From Nitrospirales bacterium (GTDB lineage Bacteria > Nitrospirota > Nitrospiria > Nitrospirales > UBA8639): a stretch of 64,000 nt of DNA. The stretch's first letter is position 1, and each line of letters starts with the position of its first letter. Positions 2,938 to 18,590 of this stretch are shown piece by piece. The stretch is taken from positions 1-64,000 of the forward strand of contig JAJDBP010000029.1 in NCBI GenBank assembly GCA_029261295.1. The letters run 5' to 3'. The position numbers were made by a program, and so were the translations under genes. The notes under the pieces were generated by a model. The model was given only the letters and a program-made list of their open reading frames with translations, did not search any database and was not told where the DNA came from.

Positions 2938-4992
2938 TTAGTTCGAAGCCGTATATTGTCCATCCGTAAACTGCCAAACCCCACCGCGTAGATACCACAA
3001 CCGCACATACAAGGTCCGACTATCTGTGGGTAACGATGTGACACCGACCGACGTACTCCCAGCCAAATATTTGATATACACATCCGTAGCCCCAACACTG
3101 GAGCCAATAAAGAGCCACCAGGCATCAATGCTGTCCCCATTAGCCGTCCAGTTGAACGTCTCACTAGCCCCGCCCAATGTGCTCCCAAGAGCTGGAACAG
3201 TCATGGCCGGGGGCGCGAGAGTGGCCGCCGTATATTGGCCATCCACAAACAGCCAAACCCCACCGCGTTGATACCACAACCGCACAAATAAGGTCCGTCC
3301 ATCCGTGGGCAATGACCATGCACTGACTGACGTACTACCTGGGACATATTTGCTATACACATCAGAGGCCCCAACACTGGAACCAATGAAGAGCCACCAG
3401 GCATCAATGCTGTCCCCATTGGCCGTCCAATTGAATGTCTCATTGGAATTTCCTAACGTGCTGCCAAGAGCTGGAACCGTCATGGCCGGGGCCGCGAGGG
3501 TGGCAGCTGTATATTGGCCATCCACAAACAGCCAAACCCCACCGCGTTGATACCACAACCGCACAAACAAGGTCCGACCATCCATAGGCAACGACGACAC
3601 ACTGGCGGAGGTACTACCAGGGATATATTTACTATACACATCAGTGGCACCAACACTGGAGCCAATAAAGAGCCACCAGGCATCAATGCTGTCCCCATTG
3701 GCCGTCCAGTTGAACGCCGCACCAGTACTCCCTAACGTGCTGCCGAAAACGGGCGTGACCATAGCCGGTGCTGCTAACGTTGCGGCGTTAAATTGGCCAT
3801 CGGTAAATTGCCACACCCCGGCTCGTTGGTACCATAACCGCACATACAAGGTTCGACCATCCGTGGGTAACGAGTTGACACTCACCGACGTACTGCTGGG
3901 CAAATACTTCTTATAGACATCATCCGCCCCAACGCTAGAACCGATAAAGAGCCACCACGCAGTGACAGGATCATTATTAGCCGTCCATTCAAATGTGACT
4001 GCCGAGTTGGCCAATGTTGAATTATATGTTGGACTTGTGACGGTTGGCCCTAAACTCACATCCCACCCAAGGTCAGCGAACAATTCCCCCGCCAAGCCCA
4101 CGTCGTGAATGGCTTCACCGGCGCTAATAGAATGCTCCATTAATTGATCAGGTTTAATGACCTTATTGAAATGAGAAACGGAAGAACCCGACGATTGCGT
4201 TGCTGGCGCGTACATTTCTACGTGGCCGCTAACTGGTTCATTCCCCGCAGTCAATATGCCGCTGCCGCCAATAATTTCTGCTCCTGTAAAATGCAAATTC
4301 GTTCCAGAAACACTCGCCGTCACACGTTGCCCATCAGTCATCGTTGGGTAGTCGGCAGGAATGGCTCCATGATGTTCCAAGTGCAAGGAATAGACATCAT
4401 CAGCCCCAGAAAATTTCGCACCCGAAGCAAGATTGACTAAAGAAAGAAAACCCAACCCATGACCTATTTCATGAAGCACCACACTCACAAAATCATATTG
4501 CCCACCAGGCGGGTTGCCATCAAGACCGAAATAAAACGTAAAGTCACTGCTAAACGTGGCATTAATATCATTCGTCGAAGGGGCCAAATCCATCCCAGCG
4601 AGTTTATTGGCCAGAGCTTGCACATACCAGGTATTGGCAAGAGGAGTATTAGAAAAATCTCGATGAACTGTTGTTGGCCCTGCCTGCCCGAGAACTCCAA
4701 CACCAAGTGGATCCATTGCCGCGTTCACTCTAATCTCCACCGAGCTACTCAAAATACCGGCCCAAATATTGGCGGCATATTCAAAAGCATTCAGTCGGGC
4801 TTGCCCTAGGGTCGTTGCCGCATTCCCTCCCACTGGGGTAAATGAGGTTGGATCGTTAAACCCTTCGCCAGCACCATCTATATTGACGACGGTAATCGTG
4901 GCAGCAGCAAAACTGCCAAAAGGCAAAATCCATCCCAAGAAGATGAGGGAGATAAACACCACACAGAAATGTATGAATTGAGAAAACTTCAT
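2938..4992 (-). CDS. Secreted zinc metalloprotease-like protein with four tandem C-terminal repeats
   Basis: The 684-residue protein starts with a clear signal peptide (about residues 1-31, cleavage near FAAA). Residues 174-178 form HEIGH, the zinc-binding and catalytic helix of gluzincin/metzincin-type peptidases, extended to HEIGHGLGFLS. In metzincins the eleventh position is the third zinc ligand (His or Asp); here it is Ser184, so the third ligand must come from elsewhere or the enzyme is altered. An LMEHSIS...HDVGLAGELFADLGW segment before the repeats resembles the end of the catalytic domain in related bacterial proteins. The last 372 residues are four copies of a 93-residue module with conserved WWLFIGSSVG, LPTDGRTL and VRLWYQRGG motifs. 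The gene lies 45 bp downstream of a small secreted protein gene and may be co-transcribed with it. The substrate is unknown. Confidence 0.8.
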   Translation of the reverse strand: MKFSQFIHFCVVFISLIFLGWILPFGSFAAATITVVNIDGAGEGFNDPTSFTPVGGNAATTLGQARLNAFEYAANIWAGILSSSVEIRVNAAMDPLGVGVLGQAGPTTVHRDFSNTPLANTWYVQALANKLAGMDLAPSTNDINATFSSDFTFYFGLDGNPPGGQYDFVSVVLHEIGHGLGFLSLVNLASGAKFSGADDVYSLHLEHHGAIPADYPTMTDGQRVTASVSGTNLHFTGAEIIGGSGILTAGNEPVSGHVEMYAPATQSSGSSVSHFNKVIKPDQLMEHSISAGEAIHDVGLAGELFADLGWDVSLGPTVTSPTYNSTLANSAVTFEWTANNDPVTAWWLFIGSSVGADDVYKKYLPSSTSVSVNSLPTDGRTLYVRLWYQRAGVWQFTDGQFNAATLAAPAMVTPVFGSTLGSTGAAFNWTANGDSIDAWWLFIGSSVGATDVYSKYIPGSTSASVSSLPMDGRTLFVRLWYQRGGVWLFVDGQYTAATLAAPAMTVPALGSTLGNSNETFNWTANGDSIDAWWLFIGSSVGASDVYSKYVPGSTSVSAWSLPTDGRTLFVRLWYQRGGVWLFVDGQYTAATLAPPAMTVPALGSTLGGASETFNWTANGDSIDAWWLFIGSSVGATDVYIKYLAGSTSVGVTSLPTDSRTLYVRLWYLRGGVWQFTDGQYTASN
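2941..4056 (-). repeat. Four in-frame 279-bp tandem repeats
   Basis: The 3' half of the metalloprotease gene is built of four head-to-tail 279-bp units. Matching landmarks recur every 279 bp, for example the GGTAACGA/GGCAATGA element near 3027 and 3306, and the block near 3003 matches the one near 3841 three units away. Each unit encodes a domain with about nine conserved aromatic or glycine positions, probably a small beta-sandwich. The high similarity of the middle units indicates recent expansion or gene conversion. Copy number is therefore likely to vary between strains and may be collapsed in short-read assemblies. Confidence 0.85.
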
Positions 4993-10111: not shown

Positions 10112-10507
10112 TCATTGTTGGTTTTTCTCCTTCAGGATTTCTCGCTCGACGTTTCGAACAATGCGAGAGAGGCGATTTTCTTGCCCTGGGTCTTGCGTCG
10201 AGAGATCAGAAAACACCAAACCTAAACGTCTGGCATTTATATGCCGAACGGTGGATGGGATTTTGGCCGCGACCTCACCATCGAGCTGAATCGTGACGAA
10301 CACATTGCTATCGACATCAACACTAGGGAGGTTATCCGGAGAAAACTCCAGAAGGATACCCCCGATATGAATATCAATACAACGCGCCTCCCATCGTGTG
10401 CCACCCTGAACCTCCAGTTCGACCTCTACGGCCAGTTCCTGGGACACACGGTTTCTTGGTGGCTGACGATCTTGCCACAGTCTATCTTCATCGGAGAGTT
10501 CTTCCAT
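10112..10507 (-). CDS. PilZ-domain protein, copy A
   Basis: This 131-residue protein is essentially one PilZ domain. The c-di-GMP-binding motif RxxxR is seen as RQPPR near residue 14, and the second motif D/NxSxxG appears as DIHIGG near residue 50, with His replacing Ser. The remainder has the expected beta-barrel pattern and ends in a charged helix (IVRNVEREIL). The ATG at 10507 is chosen over a GTG four codons earlier because it gives exactly the same length and N-terminal alignment as copy B. Single-domain PilZ proteins act as c-di-GMP-responsive adaptors; the partner is unknown. The gene is monocistronic, with its own promoter at 10598-10626. The Ser-to-His change may alter nucleotide affinity. 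Confidence 0.78.
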   Translation of the reverse strand: MEELSDEDRLWQDRQPPRNRVSQELAVEVELEVQGGTRWEARCIDIHIGGILLEFSPDNLPSVDVDSNVFVTIQLDGEVAAKIPSTVRHINARRLGLVFSDLSTQDPGQENRLSRIVRNVEREILKEKNQQ

Positions 10508-10597
10508 AGACGATCCCACGTTCTCTTTCAGGCATTGAAGCCAATGTGTTAACGATCTGATTCTTGAGAGCTCTAAATGCTGATGTGCTTACAGAAA

Positions 10598-10626
10598 ATT
10601 GTCTTACCTCTTGGGCATCTTGTCAA
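10598..10626 (-). promoter_or_regulatory. Sigma-70-type promoter of PilZ copy A
   Basis: On the minus strand TTGACA (10626-10621) is followed after exactly 17 bases by GACAAT (10603-10598). The same arrangement recurs 662 bp away in front of copy B although the sequence between has drifted, which supports function. The predicted leader is roughly 80 bases. Confidence 0.7.
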
Positions 10627-10773
10627 GACGAGTCTCTCACACATCCTCCAATCTGAGAACAGAGGAGAGGGTGAGAGAAAAGGGACAATGGCTTTACCGC
10701 AAGGAATCTCTCACCAATGAGATAGGATAGAATCGAAGGGGAGTATCCAACGAGTCCACGAAAATGAGGAAAC

Positions 10774-11169
10774 TTATTCCTGCCTTTTTTTCCTCAGGAT
10801 TTCTCGCTCGACATTTCGAACGATGCGAGAGAGGTGATTTTCCTGCTCTGGAGCTTGAGTCGAAAGATCGGGAAAGACCAGGCCTAGACGTCCGTCAACA
10901 ATATGCCGAACGATAGCAGGAATCTTGTCCGCTATCTCGTTATCAAGCTGAATGGTGACAAACACTTTACTGTCTGTGGTCACGTCTGGAAGATTAGCTT
11001 GAGCAAACTTCAGGAGAGTCCCGCCTATATGAATATCAAGACAACAACCAGTCCATCGTTTCCCACTGGGACACTCAAGCTCCGCCTTGACGGCAAGGTC
11101 CTTTGACACAGGAATTCTGGGGAGCTGGCGGTCTTTGCAATATCGATCCTTATCTGAGCCGTTTTTCAT
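10774..11169 (-). CDS. PilZ-domain protein, copy B
   Basis: This is a 131-residue paralogue of the gene at 10112-10507, related along its whole length. It keeps the second motif as DIHIGG, with the same His in place of Ser. The first motif reads RQLPR near residue 14. Differences cluster in the first 30 residues and in the middle loop, while the C-terminal helix (LSRIVRNVEREIL) is nearly identical. The start ATG aligns with that of copy A. As for copy A, a c-di-GMP adaptor function is known for the family, and the target here is unknown. The intact frame in both copies suggests that both are used, possibly with different partners. Confidence 0.78.
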   Translation of the reverse strand: MKNGSDKDRYCKDRQLPRIPVSKDLAVKAELECPSGKRWTGCCLDIHIGGTLLKFAQANLPDVTTDSKVFVTIQLDNEIADKIPAIVRHIVDGRLGLVFPDLSTQAPEQENHLSRIVRNVEREILRKKRQE

Positions 11170-11855: not shown

Positions 11856-11861
11856 TTGACA
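11856..11861 (+). promoter_or_regulatory. -35 hexamer of the S24 repressor gene
   Basis: A perfect TTGACA lies 31 bases before the ATG at 11892. With a 16-18 base spacer the -10 element falls at about 11878-11885, inside the 17-bp palindrome, and transcription would begin at or within a base or two of the ATG. The -10 match is poor (AACCAT), as is common for tightly repressed promoters. The hexamer could also be read as a TTG start codon, which I consider unlikely. Confidence 0.6.
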
Positions 11862-11875
11862 CGCCCTGATCGATA

Positions 11876-11892
11876 TGTAACCATTGGTTACA
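11876..11892 (+). promoter_or_regulatory. Perfect 17-bp palindrome: likely operator of the S24 repressor
   Basis: TGTAACCATTGGTTACA is an exact inverted repeat of two 8-bp arms around one central base. It ends on the first base of the repressor ATG and covers the predicted -10 and start of transcription. That position and symmetry are what an autoregulating LexA/CI-type repressor would require. I found no second copy of the full 17-bp site in the window, so the downstream genes are presumably controlled by read-through from this promoter. Confidence 0.7.
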
Positions 11893-12434
11893 TGACGCCT
11901 GCCGCCTTCAAACAGATTCGCCAACGCCTCGGGCTCACCCAATCTCAATTGGCTGAACGCCTTCGCACTACCCGTATGACGATTACTCGCTATGAATGTG
12001 GGATGCGCCGAATTCCTGGCGTGGTGGAAGCTATTCTTTCGCAACTGGACTCCCCTTCTCAGATTCCCATGGTTGGAGTCGTGGCAGCCGGCAATCCGAT
12101 TGAACCTATTCTCCAGGCTGAATTAGTAGAGGTCCCCCCGTCGATGTTACGGACTGGTGAAAACTTTGCCCTCCGCGTGAAGGGTGAGTCGATGCGGGAT
12201 GAAGGGATTCTTCCTGGTGATTTGGTCATCGTCCACAAACAACGGACGGCTCGGAACGGCCAGACAGTGGTGGCGTTAGTCAACCACGACGCCACGATTA
12301 AGAAATATTATCGAAAAGAGAAACAGGTCGAATTACATCCCGCGAATACGACGATGGTTCCCATTGTCGTCACACCATCAGATGAGTTTGTCATTGAAGG
12401 GGTCGTGATCGGCGTGATTCGCCATTGCGGGTAA
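11892..12434 (+). CDS. XRE-HTH / S24 self-cleaving repressor (LexA-like)
   Basis: The 180-residue protein joins an N-terminal Cro/CI-type helix-turn-helix (about 1-45) to a C-terminal S24/LexA peptidase domain. The self-cleavage site is the Ala66-Gly67 pair in VVAAGNP. The catalytic serine is Ser100 in GESMRDEGILPGD, and the lysine is Lys137 in DATIKKYY. Such repressors autocleave when RecA filaments form on damaged DNA. The N-terminal domain is XRE-like, not the winged helix of canonical LexA, so this is a functional analogue. I start at ATG 11892, where the fold begins. No Shine-Dalgarno precedes it, and the promoter geometry predicts a leaderless mRNA. imuB follows after 77 bp in the same direction, which makes this the probable SOS switch of the cassette. 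Confidence 0.88.
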   Translation: MTPAAFKQIRQRLGLTQSQLAERLRTTRMTITRYECGMRRIPGVVEAILSQLDSPSQIPMVGVVAAGNPIEPILQAELVEVPPSMLRTGENFALRVKGESMRDEGILPGDLVIVHKQRTARNGQTVVALVNHDATIKKYYRKEKQVELHPANTTMVPIVVTPSDEFVIEGVVIGVIRHCG

Positions 12435-12474
12435 ATGAATAGCCAATCACACATAACACCTCTACCCCATCTAG

Positions 12475-12495
12475 CCTCCCCTTACAAAGGGGAGG
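12475..12495 (+). promoter_or_regulatory. Hairpin enclosing the imuB ribosome-binding site
   Basis: CCTCCCCTT (12475-12483), the loop ACA and AAGGGGAGG (12487-12495) form a perfect 9-bp stem. The 3' arm contains GGGGAGG, the only Shine-Dalgarno-like sequence upstream of imuB. Folding would therefore hide the ribosome-binding site. No T-run follows, so a terminator role is less likely. The same kind of repeat is also found as a dispersed intergenic element in many genomes. Confidence 0.6.
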
Positions 12496-12511
12496 AAGAA
12501 GTTGTCACATA

Positions 12512-13717
12512 ATGGAACGGCAGATTGTGTGTTTTGGAATTCCGCGGCTTGCTGTGGCACTTGCGCAACTTGACGACCCAACCTTGCGGACACGCCCTGT
12601 GGCCGTGGCCTTTGCCCATACCTCTCGCGCCATGATCCATGAAGTCTCGCCTGAAGCCGAAGACGCGGGAGTCGTCCCAGGGTTACAGACAAATCAGGCT
12701 CGACGACGCTGTCCTACACTTCAACTGGTGCCTCCGAACCCCTCTCGTGTCTCTCAAGCTCATCATGCTCTGATGCCATTCATCACACCAATCGCACCCA
12801 TTTGGGAGTCGTATAGGCCGGGGCATTTTTATTTAGATTTAACCGGCACCACTCGTCTCTTTGGCGCAACCTGTGACACGACGATGCGCTTAGAACGCGA
12901 CGTCTCGGCTCGGCTTGGGCTGCAAGCCGTTGCCGGCATCGGCACCAATAAACTTGTCGCCCACATGGCCAGCTCTCTCCTCACGCCACCTCAATTGTGT
13001 GATGTCCGTGCGGGCTCCGAACAGGACTTTTTATCACCTTTACCCGTCTCAACCCTTCCCGGGTTACGAGGCCCTGGAGGGATCACACTCCAGACACGCT
13101 TAGCCGATTTGAACCTGCAGACCATTGGCGACGTGAGCGAGATCAGCGTGGAAGCCTTGGAAACGGTCTGCGGTCGATGGGGCCGTCAGCTCTACCAGTG
13201 GGCACGCGGAATTGATTGCTTGCCAGTCATAGCTCCTGAGGCCTCGTTGTCGTTGACCCACTCTTATCTCTTTGAGCCAGATACGATTGACCACGACCGC
13301 CTCATTGGAGGCTTGTCTTGTCTTCTGGATTCTCTCTGCCATGATCTCCGTCGTCAGCATCGCCTGTGCCACCGACTTGAACTGACCCTACTCTATAGTG
13401 ATCAGCTCACCATTCAGCGCTCATCTGTCTTATACACACCCACACATTGGGAGGTTGATATGTTTCCATCAGCGCAGACTTTATTCCGTCGCTGCTTTCA
13501 ACGGCGTGTGCGTATTCGCTCACTCATCATTCGGAGTAATAGCTTTTCTCCTCCTCCTGAACAGCTGTCACTCTTTCCAGCACATAACTCGGATGAGCCT
13601 CAAGATCAACCGAGGCCCCATCGATTGGCCTTGGCCATGGATCATCTGCATACCAGATTTGGGATGAAGATCATTCAATGGGGGCGTTCGCGCATGGCTG
13701 CTCATATAGACAAATAG
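12512..13717 (+). CDS. imuB: ImuB-type inactive Y-family polymerase homologue
   Basis: The 401-residue protein follows the Y-family (DinB/UmuC) plan: palm and fingers (1-230), thumb/HhH-like region, then little finger. The metal-binding acids of active members are missing. The N-terminal strand reads VCFGIPRL where DxD is expected, and the second motif SLDEAYLD is replaced by YRPGHFYLD (101-109), so Asp-Glu have become Gly104-His105. A consensus beta-clamp-binding motif QLSLF lies at 351-355. Loss of the catalytic acids with retention of a clamp motif is the known ImuB pattern; ImuB acts as the adaptor that recruits the ImuC/DnaE2 polymerase in SOS mutagenesis. imuA, usually the gene before imuB, is absent. 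Translation starts at ATG 12512, 15 bases after a ribosome-binding site inside a hairpin. Confidence 0.85.
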   Translation: MERQIVCFGIPRLAVALAQLDDPTLRTRPVAVAFAHTSRAMIHEVSPEAEDAGVVPGLQTNQARRRCPTLQLVPPNPSRVSQAHHALMPFITPIAPIWESYRPGHFYLDLTGTTRLFGATCDTTMRLERDVSARLGLQAVAGIGTNKLVAHMASSLLTPPQLCDVRAGSEQDFLSPLPVSTLPGLRGPGGITLQTRLADLNLQTIGDVSEISVEALETVCGRWGRQLYQWARGIDCLPVIAPEASLSLTHSYLFEPDTIDHDRLIGGLSCLLDSLCHDLRRQHRLCHRLELTLLYSDQLTIQRSSVLYTPTHWEVDMFPSAQTLFRRCFQRRVRIRSLIIRSNSFSPPPEQLSLFPAHNSDEPQDQPRPHRLALAMDHLHTRFGMKIIQWGRSRMAAHIDK

Positions 13718-13906
13718 AGCAATGTTTATAGAGTGTTTATCATTTTAATGAAATTTAAATAAAAGAAAAGCTTTAACTAGATGAGTTATTCACAAGCAAG
13801 AAATCTAAAGCTAAATATTTATCAACAGGTTATCAAATTGGCCGTAAAGTAAAGTAATACTTTAGCTCTAAAATGAATTCGGCATTCCCATTTGAGGTCT
13901 TCGTTC
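13718..13906 (+). other. AT-rich spacer between imuB and dnaE2 with a 15-bp palindrome
   Basis: The 189-bp spacer is much richer in A and T than its neighbours. It holds TAAAGTA-A-TACTTTA (13850-13864), a perfect 15-bp palindrome, and two sequences one base off the DnaA-box consensus, TTATTCACA (13786-13794) and TTATCAACA (13819-13827). No small gene is visible. The palindrome differs from the one before the S24 repressor. A separate promoter/operator for dnaE2 is plausible. Confidence 0.5.
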
Positions 13907-16900
13907 ATGTCAGAATTTGTTCACTTGCATGTCCACTCGGACTACTCTCCAATGCAAGGCGTCTCCCCACTCGAGGCTCTCTGCCAAACGGCTCGCGCAC
14001 AAGGCTCCCCTGCCCTTGCTCTCACCGACACCAATGGGCTCTATGGCGCCATTCGCTTTACCGAAGTCGCACAGGCCCATGGCTTGCGCCCAATCCTTGG
14101 AGCCGAACTCATCCACAAACAGCATCGTGCCATCCTCCTCGTGAAAGACCTGTATGGCTATGAGAATCTCTGTCGCCTACTCTCTCAACGCCATTGCGAC
14201 GCAGAATTTGACTGCATTACCGCCGTTCAAGCACACCGCCACGGACTGATTATTCTGTCAGACGACATTCCCGCTCTGAGGATCTGGAAGCGTCACTCCC
14301 CTGCCGACCTCTACGTTGAATTGACTCCTGGAACGCTCATGCACCAGGCCCTGGCCTTTAGTCGGCACACGAACCTACCCCCGGTAGCGACCAATCGGGT
14401 CCATTTTCTGAGTCCCAAAGAGTTTCCGTTGCATCAAACGCTTAGAGCGATTGCCCTCAACACGACACTTTCTCAATTACCTCACGACTCCTGTTGCGCT
14501 CCGCATCACTGGCTCATGCCACTCGACTCACTACAGGCGCAGTTCCCACACGTGCCTCATGCAATCAGCAATACCCTGAAAATCGCACAAGCCTGTTACA
14601 CGGACTGGTCCTTTCGAGAGACCATCTTTCCCAATTTCCGCCAACTCTCGGATGCTCATGCTGTCACTCAGCTTCAGGAAAAAACCTATGCCGGAGCAGA
14701 ATGGCGCTATGGAATCCCTTCGTCCGCTGTGATCGATCGCATCGAGCATGAATTAACCGTCATCCGAGACAAAGGCTATGCCCATTATTTTCTTGTTGTC
14801 GATGAAATTGTTCGCCAAGCCCCTCGCACCTGTGGGCGCGGTTCAGCGGCCGCTTCGATTGTGTCCTATTGCTTAGGCATTACCCATGTCGACCCCATCC
14901 GTCACAATTTGTTCTTCGAACGCTTTCTCAATCCTGGCCGTCATGATCCACCAGATATTGATATCGATTTTCCTTGGGATGAACGCGACCACATTATCGA
15001 TTTTGTCTTTGCTCGGTATGGCAGCCGACAAGCTGGCATGGTGGCCAACCACAATACCTTGGCCCCGCGCGCGGCAATTCGAGAAGTCGCGAAAGTCTAT
15101 GGTATGCCTCCGGCAGAAATGCGCCAGGTTAGCCAACTTCTAGCACGGCAACCTTCAGCTCTTGCCACCTTGCGAGAGCCATGGCCTGCCATTATTTCTC
15201 GTGCCCGCCAACTTCAAGGGCGACTTCGCCATCTCTCGGTGCATTGCGGCGGCATGGTGATTGTGCCGGACGATCTTCGCCGGTATGTGCCCGTTGAAGT
15301 GGCCACGAAAGGTGTTCCGGTTATTCAATGGGAAAAAGACCAAACCGAAGAAGCGGGGCTCGTCAAAATCGATCTTCTCGGCAATCGTTCCTTAGCAGTG
15401 ATCCGTGACGCCTTAGCAGCCATTGCCGAACACACTGGCAATCATATCGACTATGCCACATGGGATCCGATGCCTGACCCTGCGACACAAATCCTTATTC
15501 AACGAGGCGACACGATTGGCTGTTTTTATATTGAATCACCCGCCACCCGTTTGCTCCTCAAAAAACTCTGGACAGGTATGCCTGCTTATCGGCGGGCACA
15601 AGCTGATGTCTTTGAATATTTAGTGATTGTCTCTTCACTGATTCGTCCCGCCGCCAATCGATTTGTTCAACAATTTGTTCGACGCGCTCACGGCCAGAGC
15701 TATCACCCGCTTCATCCGTTAGTGGAAAACGTCCTGGCTGAGACGCATGGCATTATGGTGTATCAAGAAGACGTGACAAAGGTGGCGATGGGACTGGCAG
15801 GGTTTTCTGCTGAAGCAGGCGATCAACTGCGGAAAGTCTTAAGCAAGAAACATAAGCATCGGCAGCTCCAAGATTATCGTCAGCAATTTTTCGACAGGGC
15901 GCTTGTTCGAGGTGTCGAACTTCATACCATTCAAGCCGTCTGGGAGATGATTATGAGTTTTGTGGGCTATAGCTTTTGTAAGCCGCATTCGGCCAGTTAT
16001 GCGCAAGTATCCTTTAAGTCGGCGTATCTCCGCGCGCATTATCCCGCAGAATTCATGGCCGCCGTCATCAGCAATCAAGGTGGATTCTATTCCACTTTTG
16101 CCTACCTTTCCGAAGCACGCCGGATGGGGTTGACCATCCTTCCCTTAGATATCAACACCAGTGAATGGGCCTATCGTGGAATCGGCATGACACTCTGTCT
16201 TGGCTTTATGCAACTCAAAGGGCTGGAACGCGCATTCGTGACTCAATTCCTGGAAGAACGCCAACGTCATGGCGCTTATCGATCATTCCACGATTTTCTG
16301 ACTCGACTCAATCCCGAACCCGCACAGACTCGGCTGCTCATTCTTGCGGGCTGCTTCGACACCATTGCAGGCGAAGTTACTCGCCCTGGTCTGCTCTGGC
16401 GTCTCTATGCCATGTATCCATTCTCAGGTTTTTCCTCACAGCAAGCGTCATTGAGACACACCCCTTCTCTCTTCACAACTGCCCCGACGCTCCCAATTCC
16501 AAACGACTATACGCGTGAGCGCAAGATTCAACACGAAATTCAATTATTCGGATTTCCGCTTCAATGCCATCCCTTAACCCTGTATGCCCAACATTGGGCA
16601 GATCTGAATCTTACTCAAGCCATCGAAATGGCTTCACATGTTGGCAAGCAGATCACGATGATTGGATGGCTCATTACCGAAAAACCGGCTCTCACGAAAC
16701 ACGGCAAGTCGATGGCCTTCATGACGTTGGAAGACAGCACGGGGCTCTATGATGCCACATTATTTCCAAGCGTTTTCCAACAGTACGGGCCCTTACTCAC
16801 AACCGAACGCCCACTGTTACTCCAAGGGAAAGTTGAAGAAGAATTTGGAACAGTCACGATCACCGTCACGCAACTTCAGATTGTCGGGCAAGGGGACAGA

Positions 16901-16918
16901 CAGTTGGCTACAGCGTGA
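13907..16918 (+). CDS. dnaE2: Error-prone DNA polymerase III alpha-type subunit (ImuC/DnaE2)
   Basis: The 1003-residue protein has an N-terminal PHP domain (HLHVHSDYSPM from residue 5), the C-family polymerase core with the catalytic acids in PPDIDIDFPWDERD near residue 350, a GRGSAAASIVSYCLG motif just before it, a tandem HhH region and a C-terminal OB-fold (about 910-990). The length matches DnaE2/ImuC, which is 100-150 residues shorter than the replicative DnaE1. DnaE2 extends DNA past lesions and needs ImuB for access to the clamp. The ATG at 13907 is chosen because GAGGT lies 8 bases upstream; a TTG five codons earlier would overlap that site. With the S24 repressor and imuB it forms an SOS-mutagenesis cassette. 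No frameshift or missing catalytic residue is seen. Confidence 0.92.
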   Translation: MSEFVHLHVHSDYSPMQGVSPLEALCQTARAQGSPALALTDTNGLYGAIRFTEVAQAHGLRPILGAELIHKQHRAILLVKDLYGYENLCRLLSQRHCDAEFDCITAVQAHRHGLIILSDDIPALRIWKRHSPADLYVELTPGTLMHQALAFSRHTNLPPVATNRVHFLSPKEFPLHQTLRAIALNTTLSQLPHDSCCAPHHWLMPLDSLQAQFPHVPHAISNTLKIAQACYTDWSFRETIFPNFRQLSDAHAVTQLQEKTYAGAEWRYGIPSSAVIDRIEHELTVIRDKGYAHYFLVVDEIVRQAPRTCGRGSAAASIVSYCLGITHVDPIRHNLFFERFLNPGRHDPPDIDIDFPWDERDHIIDFVFARYGSRQAGMVANHNTLAPRAAIREVAKVYGMPPAEMRQVSQLLARQPSALATLREPWPAIISRARQLQGRLRHLSVHCGGMVIVPDDLRRYVPVEVATKGVPVIQWEKDQTEEAGLVKIDLLGNRSLAVIRDALAAIAEHTGNHIDYATWDPMPDPATQILIQRGDTIGCFYIESPATRLLLKKLWTGMPAYRRAQADVFEYLVIVSSLIRPAANRFVQQFVRRAHGQSYHPLHPLVENVLAETHGIMVYQEDVTKVAMGLAGFSAEAGDQLRKVLSKKHKHRQLQDYRQQFFDRALVRGVELHTIQAVWEMIMSFVGYSFCKPHSASYAQVSFKSAYLRAHYPAEFMAAVISNQGGFYSTFAYLSEARRMGLTILPLDINTSEWAYRGIGMTLCLGFMQLKGLERAFVTQFLEERQRHGAYRSFHDFLTRLNPEPAQTRLLILAGCFDTIAGEVTRPGLLWRLYAMYPFSGFSSQQASLRHTPSLFTTAPTLPIPNDYTRERKIQHEIQLFGFPLQCHPLTLYAQHWADLNLTQAIEMASHVGKQITMIGWLITEKPALTKHGKSMAFMTLEDSTGLYDATLFPSVFQQYGPLLTTERPLLLQGKVEEEFGTVTITVTQLQIVGQGDRQLATA

Positions 16919-17226: not shown

Positions 17227-18255
17227 TTAAATGTGTTTTCTCGTTCTCCATCGCAATGCAGCCAATCCCGCTAATCCCGTACCCAACAACAGCATCGTCG
17301 AGGGCTCGGGGATGGGGGCAGTGCCATTTTTAGGTGTAGCACTTAAGGATTTCTCTGTGGTCTGTGATTCGTTAAGTACGATTCCGTTTAAAGTCAGTTC
17401 CTGAAAAGTATCACCATTGCTAAACCCCAAACCGGGATTGCCAAAATAATTCCATTGTTGAGCGCAACCGGATGATCCACACTGTAAAAATTGGTTCGTG
17501 GTTGTATCAAAGTTCATGGCGAATGCCTGTGCCCCGCCACCCGGCCCATCCACCAAGTCCCAACTCCCAATTAAGAGACCATCTTTAAAGCCATCGATCA
17601 TCAAGGAGTTCAAATGCCGTCCTTCTATCAAACCATCGTCAAAGGTATCCCAATAGGAAAACATGCCGCTCATTGAATAGCCATTGGGCCCAGTCCATTC
17701 AAGATTAAATCCAGATGAGGAAGGTAGGTCTCCCACAAATAAGGTGCCTGCATCTTGTGCTTTATCTAGAGAGGAGTCCCCTAAGACCACTCCATTTAAC
17801 GTAAGACCCTGAAAAGAATCGTTATTAAAAAATCCTAATCCTGGGCTACCACTATTATTCCAGAATTGACCTTCCCCAGCTGAACCTCCCTGGAGAAAAC
17901 TATTCGTGTCCGTATTAAAACCAAATTGAAAGGCTGTAGCCCCAGCTCCTTGCCCATCAGCTAAGTTCCAGGTTCCAATCGGGGTACCATAGCGAAAGCC
18001 TTGGATCATCAGCGTGTCCAGACTGGTGGCATCAATAACCCCCGTTCCAATTAACGCATCATTAAAAGAGAAGGTGCCGGTCATGTAATACCCGTTATAC
18101 CCCACCCAGGAAAGATTCTGCGTGATCGCCTGAGCAGGGAGGCTGAAACCTAAGAGACACCAGGTTACACTCGATACCAGTATTGTAACGTGTCTCAATA
18201 CCTTGCTTCTCCATTTAGGTCCTAGTTGCCTTAATACATTCCACGCGACATGCAT
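17227..18255 (-). CDS. PEP-CTERM sorting-signal protein with internal duplication
   Basis: The 342-residue secreted protein has an N-terminal hydrophobic segment (ILVSSVTWCLLGFSLPAQA) as signal peptide. It ends with a textbook PEP-CTERM tripartite signal: PEPSTM, a hydrophobic helix LLLGTGLAGLAAL and the basic tail RWRTRKH. Such proteins are processed by exosortase and usually belong to the exopolysaccharide or biofilm matrix. The mature part consists of two related halves of about 140 residues, each with a GYxMxGxFSF/SY segment, an LMIxGFxxGxxIGxWxLxDG segment and an LTLNGxVL segment. I start at the ATG at 18255, where a GGGGGAG site precedes the codon by three bases. No exosortase gene lies in the window. 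The gene is followed by a strong terminator and appears to be transcribed alone. Confidence 0.88.
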   Translation of the reverse strand: MHVAWNVLRQLGPKWRSKVLRHVTILVSSVTWCLLGFSLPAQAITQNLSWVGYNGYYMTGTFSFNDALIGTGVIDATSLDTLMIQGFRYGTPIGTWNLADGQGAGATAFQFGFNTDTNSFLQGGSAGEGQFWNNSGSPGLGFFNNDSFQGLTLNGVVLGDSSLDKAQDAGTLFVGDLPSSSGFNLEWTGPNGYSMSGMFSYWDTFDDGLIEGRHLNSLMIDGFKDGLLIGSWDLVDGPGGGAQAFAMNFDTTTNQFLQCGSSGCAQQWNYFGNPGLGFSNGDTFQELTLNGIVLNESQTTEKSLSATPKNGTAPIPEPSTMLLLGTGLAGLAALRWRTRKHI

Positions 18256-18590
18256 AATCTCCCCCTCTCCTACATCGTCCAACCAAAAAAAAGTAAAAAT
18301 ATATAATTTGGTAAATGAATATTATTAGTCCTTTAGTTAGCCAAACGTCCTTTGCAGATCTTCATTTGGCTGGTTAACCCATCTTCAAAAACCATTCGGC
18401 CTTCTCCGGCATCTGAAGCAGATTACTGGGAAAAGGATCAGATAATCCCTCCCTCACTCTTGCCGACTTCGGGCATTTATGTTTGACCAGCGTTACGAAA
18501 TATGGGCGAAGGTGCCTCAAATTTAGCGAATCAGTCAACCCCCTCAAAAGAGGAAGAGTAGAAATACCTATTTATCATCACTCACCCACC
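18256..18590. other. Intergenic region between the ABC permease and the PEP-CTERM gene
   Basis: This stretch of about 335 bp holds the likely promoter region of the PEP-CTERM gene: an AT-rich block at about 18290-18330. No clear -35/-10 pair stands out. I see no RNA gene, no open frame with a ribosome-binding site and no terminator after the permease stop codon at 18591. Confidence 0.35.

Follow-up and report, generated by a model that had tools for sequence, protein, structure and literature searches.

A 64,000-nucleotide stretch of DNA from a Nitrospirales bacterium (lineage UBA8639; GenBank assembly GCA_029261295.1, contig JAJDBP010000029.1, positions 1 to 64,000), here called the window, holds three genes in a row and in one orientation, with no imuA between them. 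They encode a LexA-like repressor of the S24 type, an inactive Y-family polymerase (iPolY; ImuB- or ImuY-like, its gene called imuB here), and DnaE2. We think it likely that they form a self-contained, RecA-triggered SOS mutagenesis operon of the order Nitrospirales, in which RecA would stand in the place of ImuA. The operon is taken to comprise these three genes because the next gene 3′ of dnaE2 (17227-18282) sits on the opposite strand. A sequence-only reading had pointed to this cassette of S24 repressor, imuB and dnaE2 without imuA, and all of its elements were found where it had placed them. The observation is correct, and the cassette is a real system. What we take from the sequence is the gene content, the absence of ImuA, ImuB-C and a canonical LexA, the position of a predicted operator and its co-variation with the repressor, the state of the catalytic residues, and the protein motifs.

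The repressor and its operator

The predicted operator is a 17-bp perfect dyad, TGTAACCATTGGTTACA, of the form TGTAACC-N3-GGTTACA, whose last base is the A of the lexA start codon (Table 1 gives the coordinates of all features). It is the only such site in the window and the only good one in the genome, and in 41 of 45 homologues the dyad is found at -16 of lexA. A TTGACA-like hexamer (at least 5 of 6 bases) precedes the operator start by 20-22 bp in all 41 homologous lexA promoters, as opposed to 1 of 41 shuffles; since this spacing is conserved, the operator would cover the -10/start-site region.

In other lineages, the two half-sites vary in step (TGTGAC..GTCACA and TGTATC..GATACA, among other forms), and the protein changes with them. 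In the recognition helix, the residue next after the conserved Arg predicts operator bases 4-5 in 45 out of 45 homologues: M, Q, K, T and V go with AA, R with GA, and L with AT. Loci L149 and L173, which have damaged or unusual repressor heads, were set aside from this set. The Arg-GA pairing occurs in two contexts, TGTGACA and TGTGACC, and thus the match is not one inherited block. Where a cassette has no adjacent repressor, the operator is found before imuB instead, in 17 of the 17 loci with sufficient upstream sequence. We saw no operator before recA, in a genome where a single good operator was found and weaker, divergent sites are possible. The repressor and its single co-evolving operator appear to be undescribed in the open-licence literature.

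The repressor itself scores 134 bits with the NCBIfam lexA model, for which the cut-off is 111. Its head is a CI-type helix-turn-helix (HTH) of the HTH_3/XRE class (residues 7-43), modeled by AlphaFold as four N-terminal helices with no wing (mean predicted local distance difference test score, 89, for the whole protein). The winged HTH head of LexA, PF01726, is not found in this genome, with positive controls in E. coli and B. subtilis. The repressor is therefore non-canonical, as had been proposed from the letters alone.

Such a head could belong to a phage-type cassette regulator that does not respond to RecA or to damage, a constitutive autoregulator for example, and a regulon of a single operon would fit that description as well. 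The protease half argues otherwise: it shares about 44% identity with its E. coli LexA counterpart, it keeps the AG cleavage site, the Ser and the Lys, and in a tree of protease domains it falls with LexA and apart from the HTH_3-headed phage repressors (support 91/80, with some long branches and no Bacteroidetes members in the tree). Its nearest neighbor there (86/90) is a LexA with a winged HTH, linked to a cassette in a Marinimicrobia bacterium. We regard a phage-type regulator as quite improbable. The simplest reading would be a LexA body with an exchanged head.

The polymerase half and the place of ImuA

The Y-family protein has the Pfam domains IMS (E-value 4e-28) and IMS_C, and the thumb. 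In an alignment with a solved polymerase IV, the three catalytic acids fall on G9, G104 and H105, and G104 is invariant in 20 relatives. It had been described as an ImuB that lost its catalytic acids and kept a QLSLF clamp motif, and both parts of that description are borne out.

Past the clamp motif lies a second motif, RLALAMDHLHTRFGMKIIQWG, that resembles LDLALTQIEKQFGKGAIMKLGG, the N-terminus of the RecA of this genome. The local score of this match was reached by 14 of 2000 shuffles, and L372, D377 and G384 are invariant in 20 homologues. The protein ends 10 residues after the motif, with no ImuB-C domain, and its AlphaFold model consists of a normal Y-family body plus a helix at 368-383, and nothing beyond. 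The second motif is the RecA-NT motif of Timinskas and Venclovas (PMC6511836); in mycobacterial ImuB it is experimentally essential and is needed to bind ImuA′ (PMC11791113).

DnaE2 is complete, as had also been claimed, with PHP, palm/NTPase, fingers, HHH and OB domains, and with the PDIDID and VKID motifs retained. Its start is more likely the ATG at 13907 than the TTG at 13892. It is only about 29-31% identical to the DnaE2s of ImuABC cassettes, and a tree made without the published DnaE2A/B/X reference set places it apart from an ImuABC-linked DnaE2, together with other iPolY-linked DnaE2s. Elsewhere in the assembly, a second replicative-type dnaE, with an accA-like gene behind it, occupies the end of contig G000:C19 (L114), which looks like an assembly contaminant (3.5% contamination is reported).

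Is there an ImuA elsewhere? The sequence-only reading had left room for one. In this genome and 59 relatives, the ImuA profile NF033429 matches only RecA and RadA, and those below its cut-off. This profile exceeded its cut-off in 0 of 14 control genomes, Caulobacter included, and therefore we added a second query, an alphaproteobacterial (rhizobial) ImuA from a real imuA-imuB-dnaE2 cassette; this query, which has no positive control of its own, has no match in the genome. On these searches we reject an imuA elsewhere in the genome. The ImuB-C domain PF20114 is likewise not found in this genome, with a positive control in Caulobacter. A standalone ImuB-C in the gap between imuB and dnaE2 was considered and ruled out: the gap is AT-rich, it has no suitable open reading frame, and PF20114 is not in the genome.

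Still, every characterized DnaE2 mutasome requires extra subunits, and the cassette could work in the manner of the Deinococcus ImuY-ImuB-C-DnaE2 system, or of a canonical ImuB, with a third subunit, ImuA or ImuB-C in highly divergent form, encoded elsewhere. A relative offers something of this kind. In four genomes of one other Nitrospira genus (L231:1742-2095, L232, L233, L235), a protein of 118 aa that belongs to no known family carries a C-terminal QLR[IM]F clamp-like motif, and the LexA operator stands immediately before the start of its gene; thus extra regulon members exist in relatives, and the protein is a candidate mutasome or clamp-binding protein. We rejected it as the missing subunit here, as it is found only in those four genomes and not in this one. 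In the present genome, NF033429, PF20114, the rhizobial ImuA and the 118-aa family together find only RecA and RadA, and there is just one good operator. We consider a hidden third subunit unlikely; RecA probably takes the place of ImuA.

Relatives and known systems

Imu-type Y-family relatives are present in 45 of 59 related genomes; other Y-family polymerases are among the weaker matches of this count. From a set of named genomes, 71 Nitrospirota-type loci were retrieved. In 50 of them the same XRE-headed repressor lies directly 5′ of imuB, and most of the rest have imuB-dnaE2 without an adjacent repressor. In more distant bacteria, this pair of a Y-family gene and dnaE2 occurs with a canonical LexA (a Desulfosarcina plasmid; L191-L199). 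The imuA-less repressor-imuB-dnaE2 layout is thus ordinary for the order Nitrospirales. The sequence-only reading had taken it for unusual unless it should prove standard in relatives, which it does. Of its proposed explanations, that the lineage recruits DnaE2 without ImuA is supported across the order, and fits published ImuA-less systems (PMC6511836, PMC12926913). That the repressor gene replaced imuA is not supported: its product is a repressor of the LexA type that has an operator of its own, and there are imuB-dnaE2 pairs that lack it or come with a canonical LexA.

In relatives, some matches contain a single TGA or TAG stop codon, which raised the possibility of recoding or of an imuB-dnaE2 fusion. 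We rejected both, since the TGA in L018 and L021 is the ordinary end of imuB, with dnaE2 following directly in the same frame.

Two congeners, G005 and G006 (loci L250:1066-1608, L251 and L252:90-2116), keep lexA and the operator, but they have lost dnaE2, and their imuB is reduced to a degraded C-terminal piece. The cassette of this lineage could then be a remnant, decaying or silent. However, here and in most members of the genus all three genes are undamaged and retain their motifs, and the losing genome that was examined, G005, encodes a UmuD-like protein paired with a UmuC-like one instead (G006 has corresponding matches). We give a remnant very little credence.

The polymerase half appears to match a published, predicted type, DnaE2-iPolY-RecA. 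Pairs of an inactive Y-family protein and DnaE2 without ImuA, with RecA as the presumed third partner, have been predicted (PMC6511836), as have DnaE2B-iPolY-RecA complexes (PMC12926913). In members such as Streptomyces scDinB2 and Geobacter bemidjiensis gbDinB2 (PMC12926913, PMC6511836), DnaE2 also sits beside an inactive Y-family protein that bears the clamp and RecA-NT motifs, and the genome has no ImuA and no ImuB-C. The operon described here differs in being opened by an XRE-headed LexA, and the Nitrospira case is not described in the main text of either paper. A known imuA-less system with a standalone ImuB-C, in which induction and mutagenesis have been shown, likewise has the repressor first, an inactive Y-family protein, and DnaE2; here, on the other hand, there is no standalone ImuB-C, and the repressor has a different type of head. 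The lexA-imuA-imuB-dnaE2 cassette (PMC8072749) shares the gene order, the clamp motif and a LexA-type control, while ImuA and ImuB-C are absent here and the DnaE2s have diverged to the identity given above. What our cassette has in common with ImuA-ImuB-DnaE2 cassettes in general is a catalytically dead Y-family protein with a clamp motif.

As for the repressor, the AG site, Ser and Lys of the S24 domain are those of canonical LexA, with an HTH_3 head in the place of the winged one. The non-canonical LexA of Bacteroidetes (PMC8565304) and FddR of Francisella (PMC13148647) are also S24 repressors with a CI/XRE-type HTH, and they bind a palindrome in their own promoter. They belong to other S24 clades, whereas the protease here groups with LexA, in the tree that has no Bacteroidetes members. 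The operator TGTAACC-N3-GGTTACA also differs from the Bacteroidetes motifs GGA-N5-TCC and CTAA-N5-TTAG, and from GTG-N11-CAC.

Table 1. Features of the repressor-imuB-dnaE2 cassette and its flanks (positions in the window)
Feature	Position	Strand	Remarks
-35 element TTGACA	11856-11861	+	14 bp 5′ of operator
Predicted operator TGTAACCATTGGTTACA	11876-11892 (full dyad 11875-11893)		Conserved position; symmetric variants in homologues
lexA-like S24 repressor gene	11892-12434	+	180 aa; Pfam HTH_3 and Peptidase_S24
Ala66-Gly67, predicted self-cleavage site	12087-12092	+	Invariant in 20 homologues; aligns with LexA AG site
Ser100, nucleophile by alignment	12189-12191	+	Invariant in 20 homologues; aligns with LexA Ser
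Lys137, general base by alignment	12300-12302	+	Invariant in 20 homologues; aligns with LexA Lys
Perfect 7-bp hairpin CCTCCCC-N7-GGGGAGG, lexA-imuB gap	12475-12495		
Inactive Y-family polymerase gene (imuB)	12512-13717	+	401 aa; no ImuB-C domain
Beta-clamp motif QLSLF, residues 351-355	13562-13576	+	Q351 invariant, L354 and F355 nearly invariant in 20 homologues
RecA-NT-like motif RLALAMDHLHTRFGMKIIQWG, residues 368-391	13613-13684	+	Local match to own RecA N-terminus
AT-rich imuB-dnaE2 spacer	13718-13906	+	189 bp; conserved within genus only
DnaA-box-like TTATTCACA	13786-13794	+	Conserved in the spacer of the genus
DnaA-box-like TTATCAACA	13819-13827	+	Conserved in the spacer of the genus
Dyad AAAGTA-N6-TACTTT	13846-13863	+	In imuB-dnaE2 spacer
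dnaE2	13907-16918	+	1003 aa; complete error-prone-type polymerase III alpha

The gap between the repressor gene and imuB (12435-12511) measures exactly 77 bp, the distance that had been noted earlier, and the hairpin inside it is probably an inserted element. In several relatives this gap is only 13 bp, and others have insertions of 228-965 bp (L121, L122, L128, L129). In L122, a piece encoding the first 25 residues of imuB (867-941) lies 5′ of lexA, and the full imuB (3429-4625) 3′ of it. The spacer between imuB and dnaE2 is 189-470 bp of conserved non-coding DNA in this genus; in other genera hardly any sequence separates the two. Further upstream, on the minus strand of the window (10112-11169), are two adjoining genes, PilZ-like by eye, whose products (135 and 131 aa) are clearly related.

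How the operon may work

In undamaged cells, a dimer of the repressor would sit on the single dyad over the -10/start region of its own promoter, and the whole operon would be off. After DNA damage, RecA filaments would lead the repressor to cleave itself at Ala66-Gly67, after which all three products of the operon would be made. The Y-family protein would hold the beta clamp by its QLSLF motif and RecA by its RecA-NT-like tail, and it would recruit DnaE2 for synthesis across lesions. Cleavage, derepression, binding to RecA and to the clamp, recruitment of DnaE2 and mutagenesis are steps that we infer from the anatomy of these proteins and from the biology of the families named.

Some points weigh against this account. 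The co-variation between repressor residue and operator bases is reached by 0 of 20000 permutations over 23 unique pairs, but these are related sequences, so the permutations overstate its significance. The imuB-dnaE2 spacer, with its DnaA-box-like sequences and second dyad, may hold a second promoter or a control of dnaE2's own, and therefore dnaE2 may not rely on the operator alone; a second operator before dnaE2 was not found in the window at up to 3 mismatches. The spacers and the inserted hairpin could also weaken read-through from lexA.

The broader proposal is that the Nitrospirales LexA swapped its head for a phage-type HTH and kept its protease, and that in this genus it runs a one-operon SOS response devoted to mutagenesis only, with RecA as both the trigger and an obligate subunit of an ImuA-less mutasome. 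To this full proposal we give slightly less than an even chance. The repressor suggests that LexA heads may be exchanged while the protease is kept, and the series of operators and recognition helices would provide, as it stands, a specificity code for an SOS repressor. The cassette would provide a minimal setting for the question of whether RecA itself replaces ImuA in a DnaE2 mutasome. And it offers a testable account of damage-induced mutagenesis in the nitrite-oxidizing Nitrospira relatives, for which we found none described in the open-licence literature.

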